Source: Anaerolineales bacterium (lineage in GTDB: Bacteria > Chloroflexota > Anaerolineae > Anaerolineales > UBA11579). Taken from it: 64,000 nt of DNA. The stretch lies in the NCBI GenBank assembly GCA_020059485.1, contig JAGVCA010000036.1:1-64000 (forward strand), read 5' to 3'. A model generated the notes under the pieces. That model had not been told where the DNA came from. It saw only the letters and a program-made list of their open reading frames with translations, and made no database searches. Shown here piece after piece: positions 16,705-26,168 of this stretch (position 1 is its first letter; each line of letters opens with the position of its first letter). Both the position numbers and the translations under genes were made by a program.

Positions 16705-16733
16705 TGGACAGGCAAGGAGAAAATCTATATACT
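16705..16733 (+). promoter_or_regulatory. fadR operon promoter
   Basis: TGGACA (16705-16710), 17-bp spacer, TATACT (16728-16733). The expected start is about 16740, which coincides with the first base of the FadR-type operator. Confidence 0.75.
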
Positions 16734-16739
16734 GAAGAT

Positions 16740-16756
16740 AGCTGGTCAGACCACTT
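16740..16756 (+). promoter_or_regulatory. FadR-type operator
   Basis: AGCTGGTCAGACCACTT, centred on the perfect palindrome TGGTC-A-GACCA (16743-16753). The E. coli FadR consensus is AGCTGGTCCGAYNTGTT; 13 of 16 defined positions match. Its place at the transcription start predicts autorepression of the fadR operon, relieved by long-chain acyl-CoA if the family mechanism holds. Confidence 0.8.
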
Positions 16757-16772
16757 ACCAGAGGAGAGCTTC

Positions 16773-17480
16773 ATGAATTGGATCACCCCTGCCAAACCGG
16801 CTGAGATCACCGAAACCCGCCTGATCGAGGCTATCCTCAGCGGGTATTTCCCCGTCAATACTACCTTGCCTGGTGAACGCGAACTGGCCACCCAGTTAGG
16901 CGTCACCCGGCCCACCCTGCGGGAAGCTCTGCAGCGGCTGGCTCGTGATGGCTGGATCGAGATCCAGCATGGGAAACCCACCCGGATATGTAATTACTGG
17001 GAGGAAGGCAGCCTCGGTGTCCTGGCCGCCATCGCCCGGCATGCCAACAACCTGCCGGAGAAGTTCATCGAAAACCTGCTCGCCGTCCGAGCTTTGCTGG
17101 CCCCGGCCTACGCTCGCGCTGCCGTCGAGAACCAAGCGACCGGGTTGATTGCCCTGCTGGCAGACAATCTCACCCTGCCTGCAGAAGCCGAGGCCTACGC
17201 CCAGGCAGACTGGGCGCTGCACCACCACCTGACGATCGCCTCTGGCAACCCGGTCTTCACCTTGATCCTGAACGGCTTCCGCGAGTTGTACCCCGCCCTG
17301 GGCCGGCGCTACTTCCGCAGCCCGGCGGCCCGGACCGCCTCACACGATTTCTACCGGCACCTGCAGGCCAGCGCCGCAGCCGGGGACCCGCACCAGGCGG
17401 AAACCGTCACCCGGCAGGCAATGCTGATCTCCCAGCAGTTATGGGCACAACAGGGGGAAGGAGCGGGGCAGAATGACTGA
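16773..17480 (+). CDS. fadR: GntR-family fatty-acid regulator FadR
   Basis: A 235-aa protein with the same length and layout as E. coli FadR (239 aa). The winged helix reads LPGERELATQLGVTRPTLREALQRLARDGWIEIQHGKPT, nearly identical to the E. coli DNA-reading segment including the Arg residues that contact the operator. The C-terminal acyl-CoA-binding domain keeps FASGNP-like IASGNPVFTLILNGFRELY and GRRYF. Starts at ATG 16773 with GAGGAG 6 nt upstream. It overlaps the next gene by 8 bp. FadR of this type is best known in gammaproteobacteria, so its presence here is notable. In E. coli it represses fad genes and activates fab genes; here its local targets are itself and the two lipid genes downstream. 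Confidence 0.93.
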   Translation: MNWITPAKPAEITETRLIEAILSGYFPVNTTLPGERELATQLGVTRPTLREALQRLARDGWIEIQHGKPTRICNYWEEGSLGVLAAIARHANNLPEKFIENLLAVRALLAPAYARAAVENQATGLIALLADNLTLPAEAEAYAQADWALHHHLTIASGNPVFTLILNGFRELYPALGRRYFRSPAARTASHDFYRHLQASAAAGDPHQAETVTRQAMLISQQLWAQQGEGAGQND

Positions 17481-19224
17481 TCGGGACAAAACCCCAAACT
17501 GGTACCAGGGCCCACTCCCGGAACGCTCTTTCCGGTCGATCTTCCGCTGGGGCGCGCCGGACCGCTTTAAACATCCCGGCCGCGGGATGGTTGCGATGAT
17601 CCACGAACTGCTGGCCGTGCCCACCGACGGATTCGACAAGCCGGCCAATCTCGGTCTGGATCTGGTTCCCGACCAGCCGCCGGCCACGCTAATACCGGAA
17701 CACCGCCGTGTACTGGCCGCTATCGTCGGCGAAGACAACATCCAGACCGACGGCTACCACCGTTTGCGGGCCAGTTACGGCCAGGGGATGATCGACAGCC
17801 TACGCCTGCGCTCCGGCGTGATCGAAAACCTGCCGGATGTGGTCGTCCATCCCCGCAGCCCGGAAGACATCACCCGGATCGTCCGCTTCTGCCACCAGGA
17901 GCGCATCCCGCTGTATGTGGTCAGCGGACGGTCGTCGGTCACCCGCGGTTTTGAAGCCGTCCAGGGCGGGGTCACGCTGGATATGTCCACCCACATGAAC
18001 AAGGTGCTGGCGATCAACGAGACCAACCAGACCGTCACCGTGCAGCCCGGAATCTTCGGGCCGGCACTGGAAACCGCGCTCAATCACGCGGCCGAACGGT
18101 TCGGCTGCCGGCGCAATTACACCTGCGGCCACTTTCCGCAATCCTTCCAGTTCTCCACCGTCGGCGGCTGGGTTGCCACCCGCGGCGCCGGGCAGAACTC
18201 CACTTACTATGGCAAGATCGAAGGCCTGGTCATCGCCCAGGAAGTCGTCACCCCAGCCGGGACCATCGCCACCCAGCCTTATCCCCGCCAGGCGACCGGC
18301 CCGGACCTCAACCAGATCCTGACCGGCAGCGAAGGCACTTTCGGCGTGCTGGTCGAGGTGACCCTCAAGATCTTCCGCCACCAGCCGGAGAACACCCGCC
18401 GCTTTAGCTATATGTTCCGCACCTGGGATCAGGCCTGCCGGGCCGCCCGCGAGATCATGCAGTCCGAAGCCGGTTATCCCTCGGTCTTCCGCATCTCAGA
18501 CCCGGAAGAGACCGATGTCGCCATGCAAATGTACAACCTGGCCGGTACCCCGGCAGAAGCCGCCCTGGCCGCGCTCGGGTACCGCACTGGCGAGAAATGC
18601 CTGCTGATCGGTACCGCCGACGGCGATCGTCGTTTGACTCGCGCCATTCACCGTAACGTCCGGCAGGTCTGCCGGTCATATGGGGCTTTCCCACTGACCG
18701 CCTTTGGCGTCGTCCAGCGCTGGGAGCACAGCCGCTTCCTCGACCCCTACCTGCGGGATGATCTCGCAGATTTCGGCGTCATAATCGACACACTGGAATG
18801 CAGCGTCACCTGGGAATCCTTGCCGGCAGTCCATGCCGGGGTACGGGAGGTTGTCAAAGCCAAGCCGCACACCGTCTGCATGACCCACATCTCCCATTTC
18901 TACCCCCAGGGCGCCAACCTGTACTTCATCTTTATCACCCGCTGCACCGACCGGGAGGATTACCTCCGTCTGCAGTATACGGTCTTGCAGGCCATCCGCG
19001 ACTACGGCGGGTCCGCCAGCCACCATCACGGCGTCGGCAAGGCGTTCGCGCCCTGGCTGCCCGACCAATTGGGTGATAGTGGGATGGCAGTGCTGCACGC
19101 GCTCAAAGGCCACTTCGACCCCCATGGGATCATGAACCCGGGCGGCACGCTCGGACTGGACCTGACCGCCGAGCAGCGCAGCAAGCGCTGGGGGCTTACT
19201 CCCCGCACCCAGGAGGAGGACTAA
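17473..19224 (+). CDS. Alkyldihydroxyacetonephosphate synthase-like FAD enzyme
   Basis: A 583-aa FAD-binding oxidase of the vanillyl-alcohol-oxidase fold. PLYVVSGRSSVTRGFEAVQGG forms the FAD pyrophosphate loop and GGWVATRGAGQNSTYYGKIE the second FAD segment. The C-terminal SASHHHGVGKAFAPW carries the His triad that is diagnostic for alkyl-DHAP synthases (AGPS), and the NLYFIF Tyr region is also kept. AGPS swaps the acyl group of acyl-DHAP for a fatty alcohol, the committed step of ether-lipid synthesis. Bacterial relatives are not all characterised, so D-lactate/glycolate oxidase-like activity remains possible. It overlaps fadR by 8 bp and glpD follows after 1 bp. Confidence 0.8.
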   Translation: MTDRDKTPNWYQGPLPERSFRSIFRWGAPDRFKHPGRGMVAMIHELLAVPTDGFDKPANLGLDLVPDQPPATLIPEHRRVLAAIVGEDNIQTDGYHRLRASYGQGMIDSLRLRSGVIENLPDVVVHPRSPEDITRIVRFCHQERIPLYVVSGRSSVTRGFEAVQGGVTLDMSTHMNKVLAINETNQTVTVQPGIFGPALETALNHAAERFGCRRNYTCGHFPQSFQFSTVGGWVATRGAGQNSTYYGKIEGLVIAQEVVTPAGTIATQPYPRQATGPDLNQILTGSEGTFGVLVEVTLKIFRHQPENTRRFSYMFRTWDQACRAAREIMQSEAGYPSVFRISDPEETDVAMQMYNLAGTPAEAALAALGYRTGEKCLLIGTADGDRRLTRAIHRNVRQVCRSYGAFPLTAFGVVQRWEHSRFLDPYLRDDLADFGVIIDTLECSVTWESLPAVHAGVREVVKAKPHTVCMTHISHFYPQGANLYFIFITRCTDREDYLRLQYTVLQAIRDYGGSASHHHGVGKAFAPWLPDQLGDSGMAVLHALKGHFDPHGIMNPGGTLGLDLTAEQRSKRWGLTPRTQEED

Positions 19225-19225
19225 C

Positions 19226-20809
19226 ATGTGGCAGCCCGGATGGCGTGACGAGATCTGGTCCCGACTGGACGAAGACTGGGACATCATCGTGGTGGGCGGG
19301 GGCATTACCGGCGCGGGCATCCTGCGGGAAGCGGTTCGGGCCGGGTACCGGGCACTGCTGGTGGAAGCGCAGGACTTCGCCGGCGGCACTTCCAGCCGCT
19401 CCTCTAAGCTGGTGCATGGCGGGCTGCGCTACCTGGCCAACGCCCAGTTCAGGGTGACCTATGAATCCGTCCACGAGCGCGAACTGCTGCTGAAAGGCGG
19501 CTGCGGCCTGGTCAACCGTCTGGACATCCTGATGCCCAACGCCGACAGCAACCGAGTCCCCCCCTGGGCCTTCGGCCTCGGCCTGGTGCTCTACAGCCTG
19601 ATGGCCCGGAAGCGCTCCTTTGGTTTCAAAACCAGGGCGAACCTGACTGCCATGATCCCGCAGTTAAGCCCCTCCGGGCTGAGCAGCGCCTTCCAGTATT
19701 ACGATGCCAACGCCGACGACGCCCGGTTGACCTTACGGGTCATCCGGGAGGCTGTGGCGGCTGGCGGGACCGCGATCAATTACGTCCGGGCAGCCGATGT
19801 ACTGCGGGACCAAACCGGTCGTGTCCGCGGCGTCCGGGCGGAAGACCGGGCCGGGGACCGTCAATCGGTCGAGGTGCGTGCCCGGCTGGTGATCAACGCC
19901 GCCGGAGCCTGGGCAGATGGCCTGCGGGAAAAAGTCGGCGGCGCTCGCCGTCTGCGCCCGCTGCAAGGCAGCCACCTGGTGCTGCCCTTTGACCGCCTGC
20001 CGCTCAAGCAGTCCGTCTCCGTCTTTCATCCCCGGGACGGCCGCCCGGTCTTCACCCTGCCCTGGGAGAGCGTCACCCTGGTTGGGACCACCGATATCGA
20101 TATCGGCCACCAGTTTTCCGAAAACCCCTCTATCACCGCCGACGAGACCGGTTATCTGCTGGAGTTCCTGGCCCACACCTACCCCATGGAGCGGATCGGC
20201 CCCGAGGATGTGCTCTGCACACTGTACGGCATCCGCCCGGTGATCGATACCGGCAAGGCCAACCCTTCAAAGGAATCGCGCGAACACGCCATCTGGCTGG
20301 AGGACGGCCTGCTGACTGTCACTGGCGGCAAGCTGACCACCTTCCGGCTGATGGCGCGGGATGTGATGAAAGCCGCCAGGAAGCTGGCAGCCCCCTCCCT
20401 GCCTGGGAATGACGCCCACTCCTGCCTGCAGGCCGTCCCACCGGAAGCAGTCGAAACTGCCGCCGGGCAGATCGCGCCGGCGTCCGCCCTGCGGCTAGCC
20501 GGCCGCTACGGAGGCGAGGCTGCTGTCCTGCTGGCCGAGGCCGACCCCGGGAGCTTGACACCGATCGAGGATACGCCCTATCTGTGGGCGGAACTGCGCT
20601 GGGCGGCCGGGATGGAAGGTATTGTCCACCTCGACGACCTGCTGCTGCGCCGCGTCCGGCTCGGTTTGCTGCTGCCCGCAGGCGGCATCCCGCTGCTGCC
20701 GCGCATCCGCGAAACCGCCCAGCCGGAATTGGGCTGGGACGACGCCCGCTGGGAGCGCGAAACCGAGCGGTATATCGGCATCTGGAATACCGGTTACCGC
20801 GTTAAGTAG
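19226..20809 (+). CDS. glpD: Glycerol-3-phosphate dehydrogenase (FAD)
   Basis: A 527-aa FAD-dependent glycerol-3-phosphate dehydrogenase, which makes DHAP at the membrane. The N-terminal dinucleotide fold reads IIVVGGGITGAGILREAVRAG, then TSSRSSKLVHGGLRYL (substrate/FAD site), QYYDANADDARLTL, LVINAAGAWAD, TLVGTTDID and LTVTGGKLTTFRLMA near the C-terminal part of the domain; an alpha-helical C-terminal extension follows. It is the last gene of the fadR operon. DHAP is the substrate of acyl-DHAP and ether-lipid synthesis, consistent with its neighbour. A damaged copy of its 3' end lies at 23255-23427. Confidence 0.95.
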   Translation: MWQPGWRDEIWSRLDEDWDIIVVGGGITGAGILREAVRAGYRALLVEAQDFAGGTSSRSSKLVHGGLRYLANAQFRVTYESVHERELLLKGGCGLVNRLDILMPNADSNRVPPWAFGLGLVLYSLMARKRSFGFKTRANLTAMIPQLSPSGLSSAFQYYDANADDARLTLRVIREAVAAGGTAINYVRAADVLRDQTGRVRGVRAEDRAGDRQSVEVRARLVINAAGAWADGLREKVGGARRLRPLQGSHLVLPFDRLPLKQSVSVFHPRDGRPVFTLPWESVTLVGTTDIDIGHQFSENPSITADETGYLLEFLAHTYPMERIGPEDVLCTLYGIRPVIDTGKANPSKESREHAIWLEDGLLTVTGGKLTTFRLMARDVMKAARKLAAPSLPGNDAHSCLQAVPPEAVETAAGQIAPASALRLAGRYGGEAAVLLAEADPGSLTPIEDTPYLWAELRWAAGMEGIVHLDDLLLRRVRLGLLLPAGGIPLLPRIRETAQPELGWDDARWERETERYIGIWNTGYRVK

Positions 20810-20920: not shown

Positions 20921-22837
20921 TCAAGGCATGTAACATCCGAAAAGCCCGCCCGTTAGAGGCATCCGCCAGTCACAATTCGCCGCTTCACACGAGTTCTGGT
21001 CATTATATTGGCTGGGGTTCACGCAGCTCACCACAGTCGGGGTCGGGCATGGCGGGACATAGACCGTGATCTCCGTGCACGACATGCCCCCGAATTCGAT
21101 CGGGATACAAGCGTTGGTCACCGGGTCAAACCGCGTCCATGGTGGGCAGATCGGGGCCGGGGTTTCCGGGATACAACACCCCGCTGCCGGGTCCATCTGG
21201 TAGCCCTCTGGGCATTCCGGGTTGAGGAACAACGACCAGCAGATCGGGCAGTCGCCCAGATCAAGCAGGATCATGTTCGGCGGGCAAGCCTCAAAAAGAT
21301 CAAACGGCCAGCATTCATCCGGCTGCGGCACAGTGCCTGGATTAACCTCAAACTCACCGGCCAGGAGGGGGAAGGCGGGCATGAAGTTGATAAAGTCGTC
21401 CGGATCAGATCCCTCCTCTCCCGGAGCACCCTCCACATTACAATTTAGCAGGTAGGGCAGGCACCCGCACTTAAGGTCATAGTGATACCCGGGGGGGCAG
21501 GTTGCCACAGCGGGGTCCCCTTCGGGAACGCAACCAAAACCATCCAGCCAGTAAGTACCATACGGGCAAGAATTCTCTTCCTCAGACGGGCTGACCAGAT
21601 CAACATCGATACTGACCATAGACTGACAGTGACCGCTCTCACGGTTGAAGAAGAATCCCGGATCACACTGCGGGCACAGGCTGATGGTCACATTGGTTCC
21701 CGGTTTGACCGCCGCCCCGTAGCACACCACCATATCGTTCACCGGGTCGCAGGAAATCGCTCCATTGGGGCTGGTGATCTCGAACTGGGTCAGGTCCACC
21801 TCATCGGGTGAAGACAGCACCACCCCGGCAGACTGGCCCGCCCCGCGCAGTTCACAATACCCCTCGCCTGTGATACGGGGGGGTTCAGACGCAGGCGTGT
21901 CCTCCGGTGGATCTCCACCAATGACAGGAGGCAGCTGGCACAACTGAGGTGGGACCGTCTCGCCGCAGCTCCAGGAGCAGCGAAAGCCCAGGTCTGTCCG
22001 GGCGTGGTCCGGCTCCAGGGCATCCCGCAGATACGCCTGCAGTTCTTCCGCCGGCGTCTGGTAACCGCCGCCCCGGAAGACGCGCAGAGTGCCCGTCTCC
22101 GGGCCTTGCGGGTTGGAAGCGGGGGAATTCTGGTAATAATCCGCGCCATACCAGTCTGCCACCCATTCATGCACATTGCCGCTCATATCCAGCATTTCAA
22201 ACGGGCTTTTCCCGTCCGGGAGAATGCCGCTGAAAATAGGCTGGTCGTCCTCAGGTGCCAGACATCCGGCAAAATTGGCGTTTTCGCAGTCCGGCTCGTC
22301 CTCCCCCCATGGGTACGTGAAGGATCCTGCTCCCCGGGCCGCGTATTCCCACTCGGCTTCCGTCGGTAGGCGTGTCCCGATCCACTCGCAATAGGCATCC
22401 GCCTGCTCCCAGGAAACCCCCACCACAGGTGTGTCAAGCCGTTCAACATCTTCGTACCAGTACGGCTGGTCCGTGGATTCTGCCGGCGGCTCACAAACGC
22501 CGGCAGTCACACAGTTGGCATACTGCCGGTTAGTGACCTCGCCCTCGTGCATCCAGAGACCCGGCAGGGAGACGGAGTGCACCGGCTCAAAGTCTTGCTC
22601 GGCATCCGGGTCCTCAAAGCCCATCTGGAAATCGTTTTCGCGGATGAAAATGAACGTGCTGAGGTCGAACCAGGTCAGGCGCGTTCCCTGCGGTAAGTCA
22701 CAATAGTCAAATTCTGCTTCCGTTTCCCCAGGCAAATCAGGTACAGGGGCCTCTTCGTCAGGCTCAACTGGAAAGTTGCAAGCTGCCAGGAGTGTGACCA
22801 GCAGGAGCGCTAGCAAACCGCCGGCTATCCTTTTCAT
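20921..22837 (-). CDS. FGE-like (SUMF1 fold) lipoprotein A, Cys-rich
   Basis: A 638-aa predicted lipoprotein: signal peptide with lipobox LLAAC at residue about 21. Residues about 45-300 are a formylglycine-generating-enzyme-type domain (MHEGEVTNRQYANC, VSWEQADAYCEWIGTRLPTEAEWEYAARG, MSGNVHEWVADWY, VFRGGGY, LGFRC). The two catalytic Cys of true FGE, expected after the RGG motif, are absent (GGGYQTPAEELQAYL), so it is probably a binding module rather than a modifying enzyme. The remainder is Cys- and Pro-rich with repeated CPPG/CP-type motifs, suggesting disulfide-linked extracellular repeats. ATG chosen at 22837, 8 nt after AGGAGG. A paralog lies at 24135-26168. Confidence 0.85.
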   Translation of the reverse strand: MKRIAGGLLALLLVTLLAACNFPVEPDEEAPVPDLPGETEAEFDYCDLPQGTRLTWFDLSTFIFIRENDFQMGFEDPDAEQDFEPVHSVSLPGLWMHEGEVTNRQYANCVTAGVCEPPAESTDQPYWYEDVERLDTPVVGVSWEQADAYCEWIGTRLPTEAEWEYAARGAGSFTYPWGEDEPDCENANFAGCLAPEDDQPIFSGILPDGKSPFEMLDMSGNVHEWVADWYGADYYQNSPASNPQGPETGTLRVFRGGGYQTPAEELQAYLRDALEPDHARTDLGFRCSWSCGETVPPQLCQLPPVIGGDPPEDTPASEPPRITGEGYCELRGAGQSAGVVLSSPDEVDLTQFEITSPNGAISCDPVNDMVVCYGAAVKPGTNVTISLCPQCDPGFFFNRESGHCQSMVSIDVDLVSPSEEENSCPYGTYWLDGFGCVPEGDPAVATCPPGYHYDLKCGCLPYLLNCNVEGAPGEEGSDPDDFINFMPAFPLLAGEFEVNPGTVPQPDECWPFDLFEACPPNMILLDLGDCPICWSLFLNPECPEGYQMDPAAGCCIPETPAPICPPWTRFDPVTNACIPIEFGGMSCTEITVYVPPCPTPTVVSCVNPSQYNDQNSCEAANCDWRMPLTGGLFGCYMP

Positions 22838-22862
22838 CTGACACCTCCTTTTGTACACATCC

Positions 22863-22891
22863 ATTGTAGGAGTTTTCACAAATAAACGCAA
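22863..22891 (-). promoter_or_regulatory. Promoter of lipoprotein A
   Basis: Minus strand TTGCGT (22886-22891), 17-bp spacer, TACAAT (22863-22868), about 25 nt upstream of the ATG. Confidence 0.6.
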
Positions 22892-23254: not shown

Positions 23255-23427
23255 ACCTGTTGCTGTGCCGCGTCCGACTAGGCTTGCTGCTGCCCGCAGG
23301 CGGCATCCCGCTGCTGCCGCTCATCCGCGAAACCGCCCGGTAGGAATTAGGCTGGGACGACGCCCGCTGGGCGCGTGAAACCGAGCGGTATATCGACATC
23401 TGGAATACCGGTTACCGCCTAAAGTAG
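23255..23427 (+). pseudogene. 3' fragment of glpD (copy of about 20637-20809)
   Basis: From LLLCRVRLGLLLPAGGIPLLP to the final YRLK-stop this repeats the end of glpD with scattered changes, including a TAG in place of a codon of AQPE. It is joined directly to the MFS fragment, so the junction is a deletion scar or recombination point. Confidence 0.88.
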
Positions 23428-23439
23428 CGCAAGATTTGC

Positions 23440-24134: not shown

Positions 24135-26168
24135 CTACGGTTGCACGCACCGTCCTGCCGCCAAATCGCTTGGCACCCAGCGGCAGTTGGCTTCTTCACA
24201 CGAAGTCTGATTGCTGTACTGATCCGGATTGGTGCAGGTCGGCTGGGTCGGCTCCGGACAGGCCGGCACGTTCACGGTGATCTCGAAGCATGTCTGACCA
24301 ACCGGGATCGGCACACAACTGTTCGTCACCGGATCAAAAACGGTCCCCGGCGGGCAGGTCGATACCGGCACCTCCGGGACACAGCAGTTGGCATCCGGGT
24401 CAAAGTAGTACCCATCCGGGCAATCCGATTGCTGCGGGAACGGCCAGCACACCTGGCACCCGCCGACCTCGATGCTGAAAGTATTCGGCGGGCAGTTCAG
24501 TTCGGTCCCCGGCGGGGCACACACCTCCGGATCAATCCCATTATTGGGATCGTCATCCAGCATTCCAGGGACATACGGGATCAGCAGTTCCGGCAGATCG
24601 GGGAACAACCCGGCCAACGGATCCTCCTCATCGTCACAGCAGAACGGATCGAATAGATCGGTGGGGGTCGGTGTCGGTCCACCCTCGATCACCAAGACGA
24701 TCGGGGTCGGTGTTTCAATCACCAACTCAAGCGTCGGCACTTCTACTTCGGCCTCAACCGGCGTCGGGTCCACTACTATGCCACACAATACACCTTGAGG
24801 GATGCAGCCGCAGGGAGTAGTGTAGTAATAGCCCGGCTCGCAGGTCGGGGGCGGCGGAGGCGGCAGGTCGGGGACGCAGCCATATTCGGTTGGAATATAG
24901 CCCTCGGCGCACTCAAGTTCGGTTGGAGAGAGCAGGCTGACATCCACGTTCAGGATCGGCCGGCAGATGTCAAAATTCTGATCGAAATAGTAGCCAGGGC
25001 CGCAGTCTGGACAAACCGTGATCGTCACCTGGCTTGCAGGCTGAACTGCCGGGCCAAAGCACACCATCTTTTCATTCACCGGGGTGCAGGTCACCGGTCC
25101 GTCCGGGCTGGAATAATCATACTGGCTCAGGTCTGCGCCGCCGGATGGAGATAACACCACCCCGGCTTTGTTGCCACCAGCACTCGGTTCACAGTACGCC
25201 ACCGCGGTTACATTCGGCTGGGGCGGGTTGGGGTTGGTCACCGGCAGATCACCGCCAACGGTCGGCGGCAGTTGGCATAGTTTCGGGTTCGAAGAAGCAC
25301 CGCAATCCAGCGCGCAGCGGAAACCGAGGTCCGGGCTGGCAAACTCAGGTTCGAGAGAACCGCGCAGAAAAGCCGGCAATTCCTCTGTCGTTGACCCGAA
25401 ATTGCCGCCCCTCAAAACACGCTGCTCGCCATGCTCTGGCCCGTCCGGATCAACCGATGGAGAGTTCAGATAATAATCCGGGGCATACCAGTCATTGACC
25501 CACTCGGCCACATTCCCGCTCAGGTCCAGCACATCCAGCGGATTCCCGCCATCGACGAGCAGTCCGGACAAAACCGGCGCATCCGGATCAGGATCCAGAC
25601 AACCGGTGAAGTTCGCCAGGTCACAGTCAGGTTCTTCATTGCCCCAGGGGAATACATCAGTGGAGAAACCGCGGGCGGCATACTCCCATTCCGCCTCGGT
25701 CGGCAGACGGGCGCCGATCCAGCCGCAGTAGTCATCGGCCTGCTCCCAGGACACCCCCGAGACCGGCGCGTCCAGGTAATCAGGGCGGTCAGCCCAATAG
25801 GGGAAATCCGTCCGCTCGATTGGCGGTGAACAAGCCCCGGACTTGACACACTCCGCATACTGGCGGTTGGTGACTTCTGTTTCATGGATCCAGAAGGCCG
25901 GCAGATCGATAGTGTGCACCGGCTCAAAATCCTGTTCTTCTTCCGGATCATCGAACCCCATCGCGAAGGAACCTTCCGGCATGAAGATGAAGGTGCTGAG
26001 ATCGAACCAGGTCGTCTTCGTCCCGGCCGGCAAGCTGCAATAATCGATCGAGACATCCTCAGCGCCAGCGCCTTGCCTTGATTGTGGGGATTGACCATCT
26101 GGAGAGCCGCAAGCGGCCATAAAGACAACCAAGACACATACCGAGCAAATACCAATAAACCACTTCAC
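24135..26168 (-). CDS. FGE-like (SUMF1 fold) lipoprotein B, Cys-rich
   Basis: A 677-aa predicted lipoprotein (signal peptide with lipobox FMAAC, about residue 20), GTG start with GGAGG 7 nt upstream. The architecture is the same as the protein at 20921-22837: an FGE-type domain (FWIHETEVTNRQYAEC, VSWEQADDYCGWIGARLPTEAEWEY, LSGNVAEWVNDWY, VLRGGNF, LGFRC), then Cys/Pro-rich repeats including CPDCGPGYYFDQ and CPPGTVFDPVTNSC units, ending in the shared Asn-Pro-x-Gln-Tyr/Cys-rich tail. Catalytic FGE cysteines are missing here too. A Thr/Pro/Val linker (TPTPIVLVIEGGPTPTPTD) is unique to this copy. Together the two genes form a diverged pair. Confidence 0.85.
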   Translation of the reverse strand: MKWFIGICSVCVLVVFMAACGSPDGQSPQSRQGAGAEDVSIDYCSLPAGTKTTWFDLSTFIFMPEGSFAMGFDDPEEEQDFEPVHTIDLPAFWIHETEVTNRQYAECVKSGACSPPIERTDFPYWADRPDYLDAPVSGVSWEQADDYCGWIGARLPTEAEWEYAARGFSTDVFPWGNEEPDCDLANFTGCLDPDPDAPVLSGLLVDGGNPLDVLDLSGNVAEWVNDWYAPDYYLNSPSVDPDGPEHGEQRVLRGGNFGSTTEELPAFLRGSLEPEFASPDLGFRCALDCGASSNPKLCQLPPTVGGDLPVTNPNPPQPNVTAVAYCEPSAGGNKAGVVLSPSGGADLSQYDYSSPDGPVTCTPVNEKMVCFGPAVQPASQVTITVCPDCGPGYYFDQNFDICRPILNVDVSLLSPTELECAEGYIPTEYGCVPDLPPPPPPTCEPGYYYTTPCGCIPQGVLCGIVVDPTPVEAEVEVPTLELVIETPTPIVLVIEGGPTPTPTDLFDPFCCDDEEDPLAGLFPDLPELLIPYVPGMLDDDPNNGIDPEVCAPPGTELNCPPNTFSIEVGGCQVCWPFPQQSDCPDGYYFDPDANCCVPEVPVSTCPPGTVFDPVTNSCVPIPVGQTCFEITVNVPACPEPTQPTCTNPDQYSNQTSCEEANCRWVPSDLAAGRCVQP

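Follow-up and report, generated by a model that had tools for sequence, protein, structure and literature searches.

The flavoenzyme AGPS (alkylglycerone-phosphate synthase, also ADPS; EC 2.5.1.26), known in structure from guinea pig (4bby) and Dictyostelium (2uuu), exchanges an acyl chain for a fatty alcohol and thereby forms alkyl-dihydroxyacetone phosphate (alkyl-DHAP), for which a flavin adduct has been proposed; mutation of the Dictyostelium enzyme showed that R352, R447 and Y508 are important (PMC3509576). In myxobacteria, the operon MXAN_1676-1674 combines AGPS with FAR and acyltransferase functions (PMC9131029), and Agps homologues recorded in metagenome-assembled genomes (MAGs) of Chloroflexota and Desulfobacterota have been treated as a potential for ether-lipid synthesis (PMC11868695). 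Regarding the opposite process, AGMO, which uses tetrahydrobiopterin, is the only alkyl-ether-cleaving enzyme described in the accessible parts of the sources that we found (PMC9192799, PMC7911779). Here we analyze a locus in which an AGPS-like gene lies between fadR and glpD (16773-20809), within a window of 64,000 nucleotides (positions 1 to 64,000 of contig JAGVCA010000036.1, assembly GCA_020059485.1) from an Anaerolineales bacterium of the Chloroflexota. We tentatively interpret the three genes, with somewhat less than even confidence, as most of a conserved four-gene regulon for the use of 1-O-substituted glycerols, likeliest 1-O-alkylglycerols, and as serving ether-lipid breakdown rather than synthesis. 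Sequence comparison supports the gene module, a FadR regulator with its own operator, the conserved catalytic residues of GlpD and the AGPS-like enzyme, and a kinase with a predicted altered pocket.

A tight operon with an AGPS-type enzyme

The three open reading frames (ORFs) are free of stop codons and lie on the forward (+) strand. They encode a FadR-type GntR regulator of 235 aa (fadR, 16773..17480; Pfam domains GntR and FadR_C), an AGPS-like flavoenzyme of 583 aa (17473..19224; FAD_binding_4 and FAD-oxidase_C) and a paralogue of the FAD-dependent glycerol-3-phosphate (G3P) dehydrogenase of 527 aa (glpD, 19226..20809; DAO and DAO_C). The first two genes overlap by 8 bp and the latter two are separated by 1 bp, in agreement with the tight operon that an earlier note on this DNA had proposed. 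Since the same genes co-occur in two phyla, this grouping is not due to chance. That note had overlooked the promoter and FadR operator (16705-16761), a fourth gene for an FGGY kinase, which is lacking here, and a 177-bp relic of glpD.

Best PDB sequence matches of the AGPS-like protein are Dictyostelium AGPS (5e-71) and guinea-pig AGPS (1.6e-54), followed by D-lactate dehydrogenase (9e-27). Its AlphaFold2 model, based on 22 aligned rows (pLDDT 84.8), aligns to AGPS with Z of 34-37 and a root-mean-square deviation of 2.0-2.6 over ~500 residues (model residues 16/21-561), compared to a Z of at most 30.4 for D-lactate dehydrogenase. The N-terminal region that is found only in AGPS is present in the predicted fold, whereas alignments to D-lactate dehydrogenase begin at residue 73. 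Identity as a D-lactate/glycolate oxidase of the GlcD type was ruled out by scores, fold and tree: the TIGR00387 score of 149.6 bits is below the cut-off of 567.9, and the protein is placed on a long branch separate from three GlcD-type rows.

In a tree of 82 rows, built by a quick method with SH-aLRT as the only support, the window protein belongs to a clade of 19 rows (SH-aLRT 100), here called AGPS1. Its relatives in this clade, from Desulfobacterota, Caldiserica, Caloramator, Myxococcota and Actinomycetota, are 48-56% identical to it. Eukaryotic and myxobacterial AGPS form a separate clade of 13 rows (SH-aLRT 98) outside of which the window protein falls; the myxobacterial part, sampled from genomes of the phylum of MXAN_1676 with the same operon layout and not from MXAN_1676 itself, is ~50% identical to guinea-pig AGPS. 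A third clade, AGPS2, occurs in the phylum of the window. When AGPS1 was constrained to be the sister group of true AGPS, the tree was not rejected (AU test, p 0.69). The end branch of the window protein is 0.35 long versus 0.18 in its nearest relative, and its FAD loop reads SGRSS (residues 151-155), where most AGPS1 proteins have GGGSS. Thus, the AGPS-type identity suggested by the earlier note holds, and so does the placement on the AGPS branch, but not within the clade of the eukaryotic and myxobacterial enzymes; nor does the protein group with other VAO-fold oxidases, as the tree gives a third placement in a distinct AGPS-like clade.

Catalytic residues are kept but a marker position differs

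Translation and alignment locate the His triad motif HHHGVG, which had been noted before, at residues 517-522 (19021..19038, +). Arg340 (18490..18492, +), Arg428 (18754..18756, +) and Tyr484 (18922..18924, +) are the counterparts of guinea-pig Arg419, Arg515 and Tyr578 and of Dictyostelium Arg352, Arg447 and Tyr508, the tyrosine being the proposed proton-abstracting base (PMC3509576). Every AGPS1 and AGPS2 row of the alignment retains these three residues, which the GlcD-type rows lack. Counterparts of guinea-pig H300, H615 and H617 are likewise kept in the window protein. In AGPS2, the middle His of the triad (H616) is replaced by Gln in 22 of 24 proteins, e.g., L122 and L123.

In contrast, the guinea-pig motif GHEPDS (E301-P-D303, with D in Dictyostelium as well) reads F-P-Q in the window protein, i.e., GHFPQS at residues 219-224 (18127..18144, +). 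Position 303 cleanly separates true AGPS, which has D, from the other relatives: GHEPDS is found in all 20 myxobacterial AGPS loci, whereas the remaining relatives with a readable motif have GHxPQS, apart from one GHFPSS, and never D; at some loci the motif is unreadable. This subfamily marker, GH[ED]PDS with D303, was derived in this analysis and has no published definition. The window protein shares with AGPS and MXAN_1676 the predicted fold, N-terminal region, FAD domain, Arg/Arg/Tyr/His residues and HHHGVG, but differs in clade, in the marker and in having GlpD and FadR instead of FAR and acyltransferase as partners.

The gene module is conserved in two phyla

Neighbors of AGPS-like genes were identified by tblastn with marker proteins within 4.5 kb. 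GlpD is encoded near the AGPS-like gene at 18 of 23 AGPS1 and 20 of 25 AGPS2 loci, an FGGY kinase at 16 and 10 loci, respectively, and either FadR or a GntR regulator akin to it at 7 and 11 loci. As some contigs stop within the cluster, these counts are lower bounds. The GlpD/FGGY(/FadR) module spans Chloroflexota and Desulfobacterota, with the order FadR-AGPS-GlpD-FGGY in several relatives of the window and FadR-GlpD-AGPS-FGGY in Desulfobacterota and some others, and the two distinct clades AGPS1 and AGPS2 occupy the same slot. Clustering of all neighboring ORFs revealed no further clearly recurrent family besides overlapping shadow ORFs and small sets.

Actinobacterial AGPS-like genes have GlpD at 10 of 10 loci and, at six of these ten, a YegS/DAGK-type lipid kinase instead of the FGGY kinase, which points to a glycerolipid as the kinase substrate. 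At L015, L044, L067, L068, L075 and L077, a divergent GlpD, the AGPS-like gene and the YegS/DAGK-type kinase adjoin one another. The mycobacterial cluster of this kind resembles the module in that GlpD, an AGPS-like gene and a kinase lie together; it differs in its AGPS-like clade, its divergent GlpD, the YegS/DAGK-type partner and the lack of FadR within 4.5 kb.

None of the 14 myxobacterial true-AGPS loci carries GlpD, FGGY, FadR or DAGK. The next gene, scanned at four of them, is a FAR-acyltransferase fusion in three cases (L271, L281, L282) and FAR in L277, the same layout as that described for MXAN_1676-1674.

The AGPS-like protein has one match in the source genome (2.22 Mb in 63 contigs, 70% complete). 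No match was detected in two sampled genomes of the same genus, a 64% identical relative is present in one genome of the same family, and 89 of 400 genomes sampled from the phylum have matches at E 1e-40 or better, indicating a patchy distribution.

GlpD retains its substrate site, and the predicted pocket of the module kinase differs from that of GlpK

We compared GlpD and the kinase with their E. coli counterparts at positions that we take to be functionally important. The G3P-site residues R54, H233, R317, R332 and K354 of E. coli GlpD are kept in 27 of 27 module GlpDs, including that of the window, in line with the earlier assignment of this gene as glpD and with its DAO and DAO_C domains. 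However, the window protein scores below the NCBIfam equivalog cut-offs (282 versus 360 bits for NF008899, 252 versus 352 for NF009906), indicating a paralogue rather than GlpD proper, and the source genome contains a second GlpD.

The FGGY kinase of the module retains D10, R83 and D245 of GlpK, with D10 and D245 as the catalytic Asp residues, but not E84, Y135, Q246 and F270. Q246 is replaced by K in 28 of 28 kinases, F270 by T, Y135 mostly by L or F and E84 mostly by small residues, suggestive of an altered polyol pocket. A separate GlpK of the source genome (L153), 53% identical to E. coli GlpK, keeps the glycerol-site residues. As this canonical GlpK is accompanied by the second GlpD, ordinary glycerol use is apparently met elsewhere in the genome, which disfavors a plain glycerol operon at 16773-20809; four relatives show no second close GlpD.

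FadR and its predicted operator

The FadR assignment of the earlier note is supported by NCBIfam NF003444 (220 bits, cut-off 189), although the stricter TIGR02812 fadR_gamma cut-off is missed (209.5 versus 249.2 bits). DNA-contact residues of E. coli FadR are retained, and of the residues that we presume to line its acyl-CoA pocket, R105, Y172, Y179, Y193, S219 and W223 are kept and F149 is His.

Upstream of fadR we found a sigma-70-type promoter (16705..16733, +) with a −35 box TGGACA (16705-16710), a 17-bp spacer and a −10 box TATACT (16728-16733); the two hexamers together have 10 of 12 matches, and shuffled sequences yield an average of 0.3 per region. A putative FadR operator, AGCTGGTCAGACCACTTACCAG (16740..16761, +), starts 6 bp past the −10 hexamer and precedes the ATG of fadR. 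It contains a TGGTCNGACCA-type box (16740-16756), with two mismatches to the E. coli box AACTGGTCNGACCAGTT, which FadR is predicted to recognize. Because the operator overlaps the expected transcription start, FadR probably acts as a repressor of its own operon.

The extended 20-bp operator CTGGTNNGACCNCTTACCAG occurs as a single exact copy per genome in the source genome (G000), G005, G048, G036 and G061; no exact copy was found in G038 and G051, which both lack fadR at the locus. With zero to two mismatches, it is present at the promoter of 15 of 16 fadR-bearing loci (the exception being L215), and none was detected within three mismatches at 20 searched loci without this fadR. This differs from E. 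coli FadR in the CTTACCAG extension and in the one exact operator per scanned genome, located at its own operon. A genome-wide FadR regulon was rejected: the loose 17-bp box matches 18 sites versus 40 for a reversed-pattern control, so that our claim is confined to the extended form in front of the operon.

A proposed route for breakdown of alkylglycerols

For the use of 1-O-alkylglycerols, we propose that the FGGY kinase would phosphorylate C3 to yield 1-O-alkyl-glycerol-3-phosphate, whose C2 hydroxyl would be oxidized by the GlpD paralogue to 1-O-alkyl-DHAP. The AGPS-like enzyme would then apply AGPS-type flavin-adduct chemistry in the opposite direction, toward release, using the C2 ketone and the flavin, so that water or a fatty acid displaces the fatty alcohol and DHAP (or acyl-DHAP) and fatty alcohol are formed. 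Once converted to acyl-CoA, the released chain would cause FadR to leave the promoter and thereby derepress the operon. An alkyl chain is favored as the substituent because the repressor is of a fatty-acid-sensing type and because the partner kinase in actinobacteria is of the lipid-kinase type. AGMO uses oxygen, whereas the proposed route would be oxygen-free.

Several observations weigh against this interpretation. An orthologue of the module kinase was found neither in the window nor elsewhere in the 70%-complete genome. G005, G048, G038 and G051 have no close GlpD besides that of the module, which may also serve plain glycerol there. Nearly all module FadRs, including that of the window, have Met where E. 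coli FadR has G216. Moreover, we infer both the substrate and the cleavage step, and from the sources consulted AGPS is not known to catalyze release with water.

A wider claim, namely that these proteins represent a catabolic branch of AGPS-like flavoenzymes that cleave the ether of 1-O-alkyl-DHAP without oxygen and under FadR control, with E. coli YgcU and YgcE as distant relatives of the enzyme-kinase pair, appears rather doubtful to us. YgcU is AGPS-like, carries Q at the marker position and is encoded near an FGGY kinase, YgcE, which has the D-K signature of the module kinase. However, the end branch of YgcU is 1.69 long, the kinases are 31% identical, and the E. coli stretch has the putative flavoprotein genes ygcQ and ygcR in place of GlpD and FadR. 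In E. coli K-12, ygcU and ygcE lie a few genes apart (2897964-2903374, L125), and their products are annotated only as a putative FAD dehydrogenase and a putative sugar kinase, respectively.

Alternative explanations

The same E. coli cluster bears on the alternative that the middle gene encodes a common FAD dehydrogenase for a small glycerol-derived metabolite, in a glycerol or polyol catabolic operon which FadR controls in lipid-eating bacteria. A kinase, GlpD and an FAD oxidase are a common catabolic layout, YgcU is found near a K246-type FGGY kinase and the ygcQ and ygcR genes, and four genomes have the module GlpD as their only close one. Yet the AGPS catalytic Tyr and Arg residues that GlcD-type dehydrogenases lack are kept, the source genome has a canonical GlpK and another GlpD at its disposal, and residues of the glycerol site are no longer present in the module kinase. 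We consider this explanation unlikely.

Still less probable is a working AGPS, with an operon that makes alkyl ether lipids, GlpD as the supplier of DHAP and FadR matching expression to the supply of acyl-CoA. In its favor, the protein retains the counterparts of R419, R515, Y578, H300, H615 and H617 along with the N-terminal region specific to AGPS, the tree test is compatible with AGPS1 and true AGPS being sister groups, and MAGs of Chloroflexota and Desulfobacterota that encode Agps homologues have been named as potential producers of ether lipids (PMC11868695). However, the protein lies outside the true AGPS clade with Q in place of D at 303, and its partners are GlpD and, in relatives, the kinase, unlike the FAR/GNPAT of the myxobacterial operon. 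Neither of these two partners accompanies the fadR–AGPS-like–glpD operon: no acyl-DHAP acyltransferase of GNPAT/PlsB size was found in the 70%-complete genome, where all PF01553 matches are in short frames of 222-307 aa, and no strong FAR either, the best PF07993 match in it scoring 38 bits compared to 165-215 bits for myxobacterial FARs and 218 bits for one strong match in G005. The genomes G048, G036, G038, G051 and G061 are likewise without a strong FAR. As the source genome is incomplete, the lack of FAR and GNPAT is suggestive only. Taken together, the components named by the earlier note, i.e., an AGPS-type enzyme, GlpD and FadR, here with its operator, are supported, but its conclusion of an acyl-chain-controlled synthesis of ether lipids is not supported by clade, marker residue, partner genes and the search for FAR and GNPAT.

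Finally, the same three-step logic could act on non-lipid 1-substituted glycerols, e.g., glycosylglycerols from glycolipids or osmolytes, which would suit a kinase of the sugar-kinase (FGGY/XylB-like) type with an opened pocket that is not lipid-specific, but is very improbable given the control by a FadR with an acyl-CoA-type pocket, the lipid-kinase-type partner in the actinobacterial version and the fact that glycosylglycerols are normally cleaved by glycosidases.

Relation to published work

The gene set is widely conserved and apparently undescribed: in the literature that we found, whose coverage was limited, the four-gene regulon, the operator and the D/Q rule are described nowhere. A search for the operon retrieved only papers on glycerol metabolism, with AGPS in none among the matches listed, and nothing pertinent emerged on the YgcU–YgcE pair, on the catalytic residues by number, on ethers of Desulfatibacillum or on how alkylglycerols are broken down anaerobically. 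Judging from the GHxPQS rule and the gene context, many bacterial AGPS homologues that are counted as signs of ether-lipid synthesis seem to belong to a different pathway. If true, an anaerobic ether-cleaving route would be of importance to the turnover of lipids in sediments and digesters, and the uncharacterized E. coli genes ygcU and ygcE gain a testable functional lead.

Further features of the locus and its relatives

A 177-bp relic of the glpD 3′ end (23255..23431, +), 91% identical to glpD and with an in-frame stop (TAG), is located 2.4 kb downstream of glpD. It is a remnant of a duplication and may be connected with the absence of the kinase gene. Two similar long ORFs on the minus strand (20921-22891 and 24135-26168) flank the relic, at the position where relatives carry the FGGY kinase; in our reading they encode putative formylglycine-enzyme-like (SUMF1) proteins with Cys-rich tails.

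At the Caldiserica and Myxococcota AGPS1 loci L002 and L003, genes for an FAD oxidoreductase and a DUF1667 protein precede the AGPS1 gene and replace GlpD, and may represent an alternative G3P dehydrogenase system. On a Desulfobacterales contig, an ORF upstream of the AGPS1 gene (L007, 1252-3000) was read as a putative aldehyde:ferredoxin oxidoreductase, which would fit an oxidation of fatty aldehyde.

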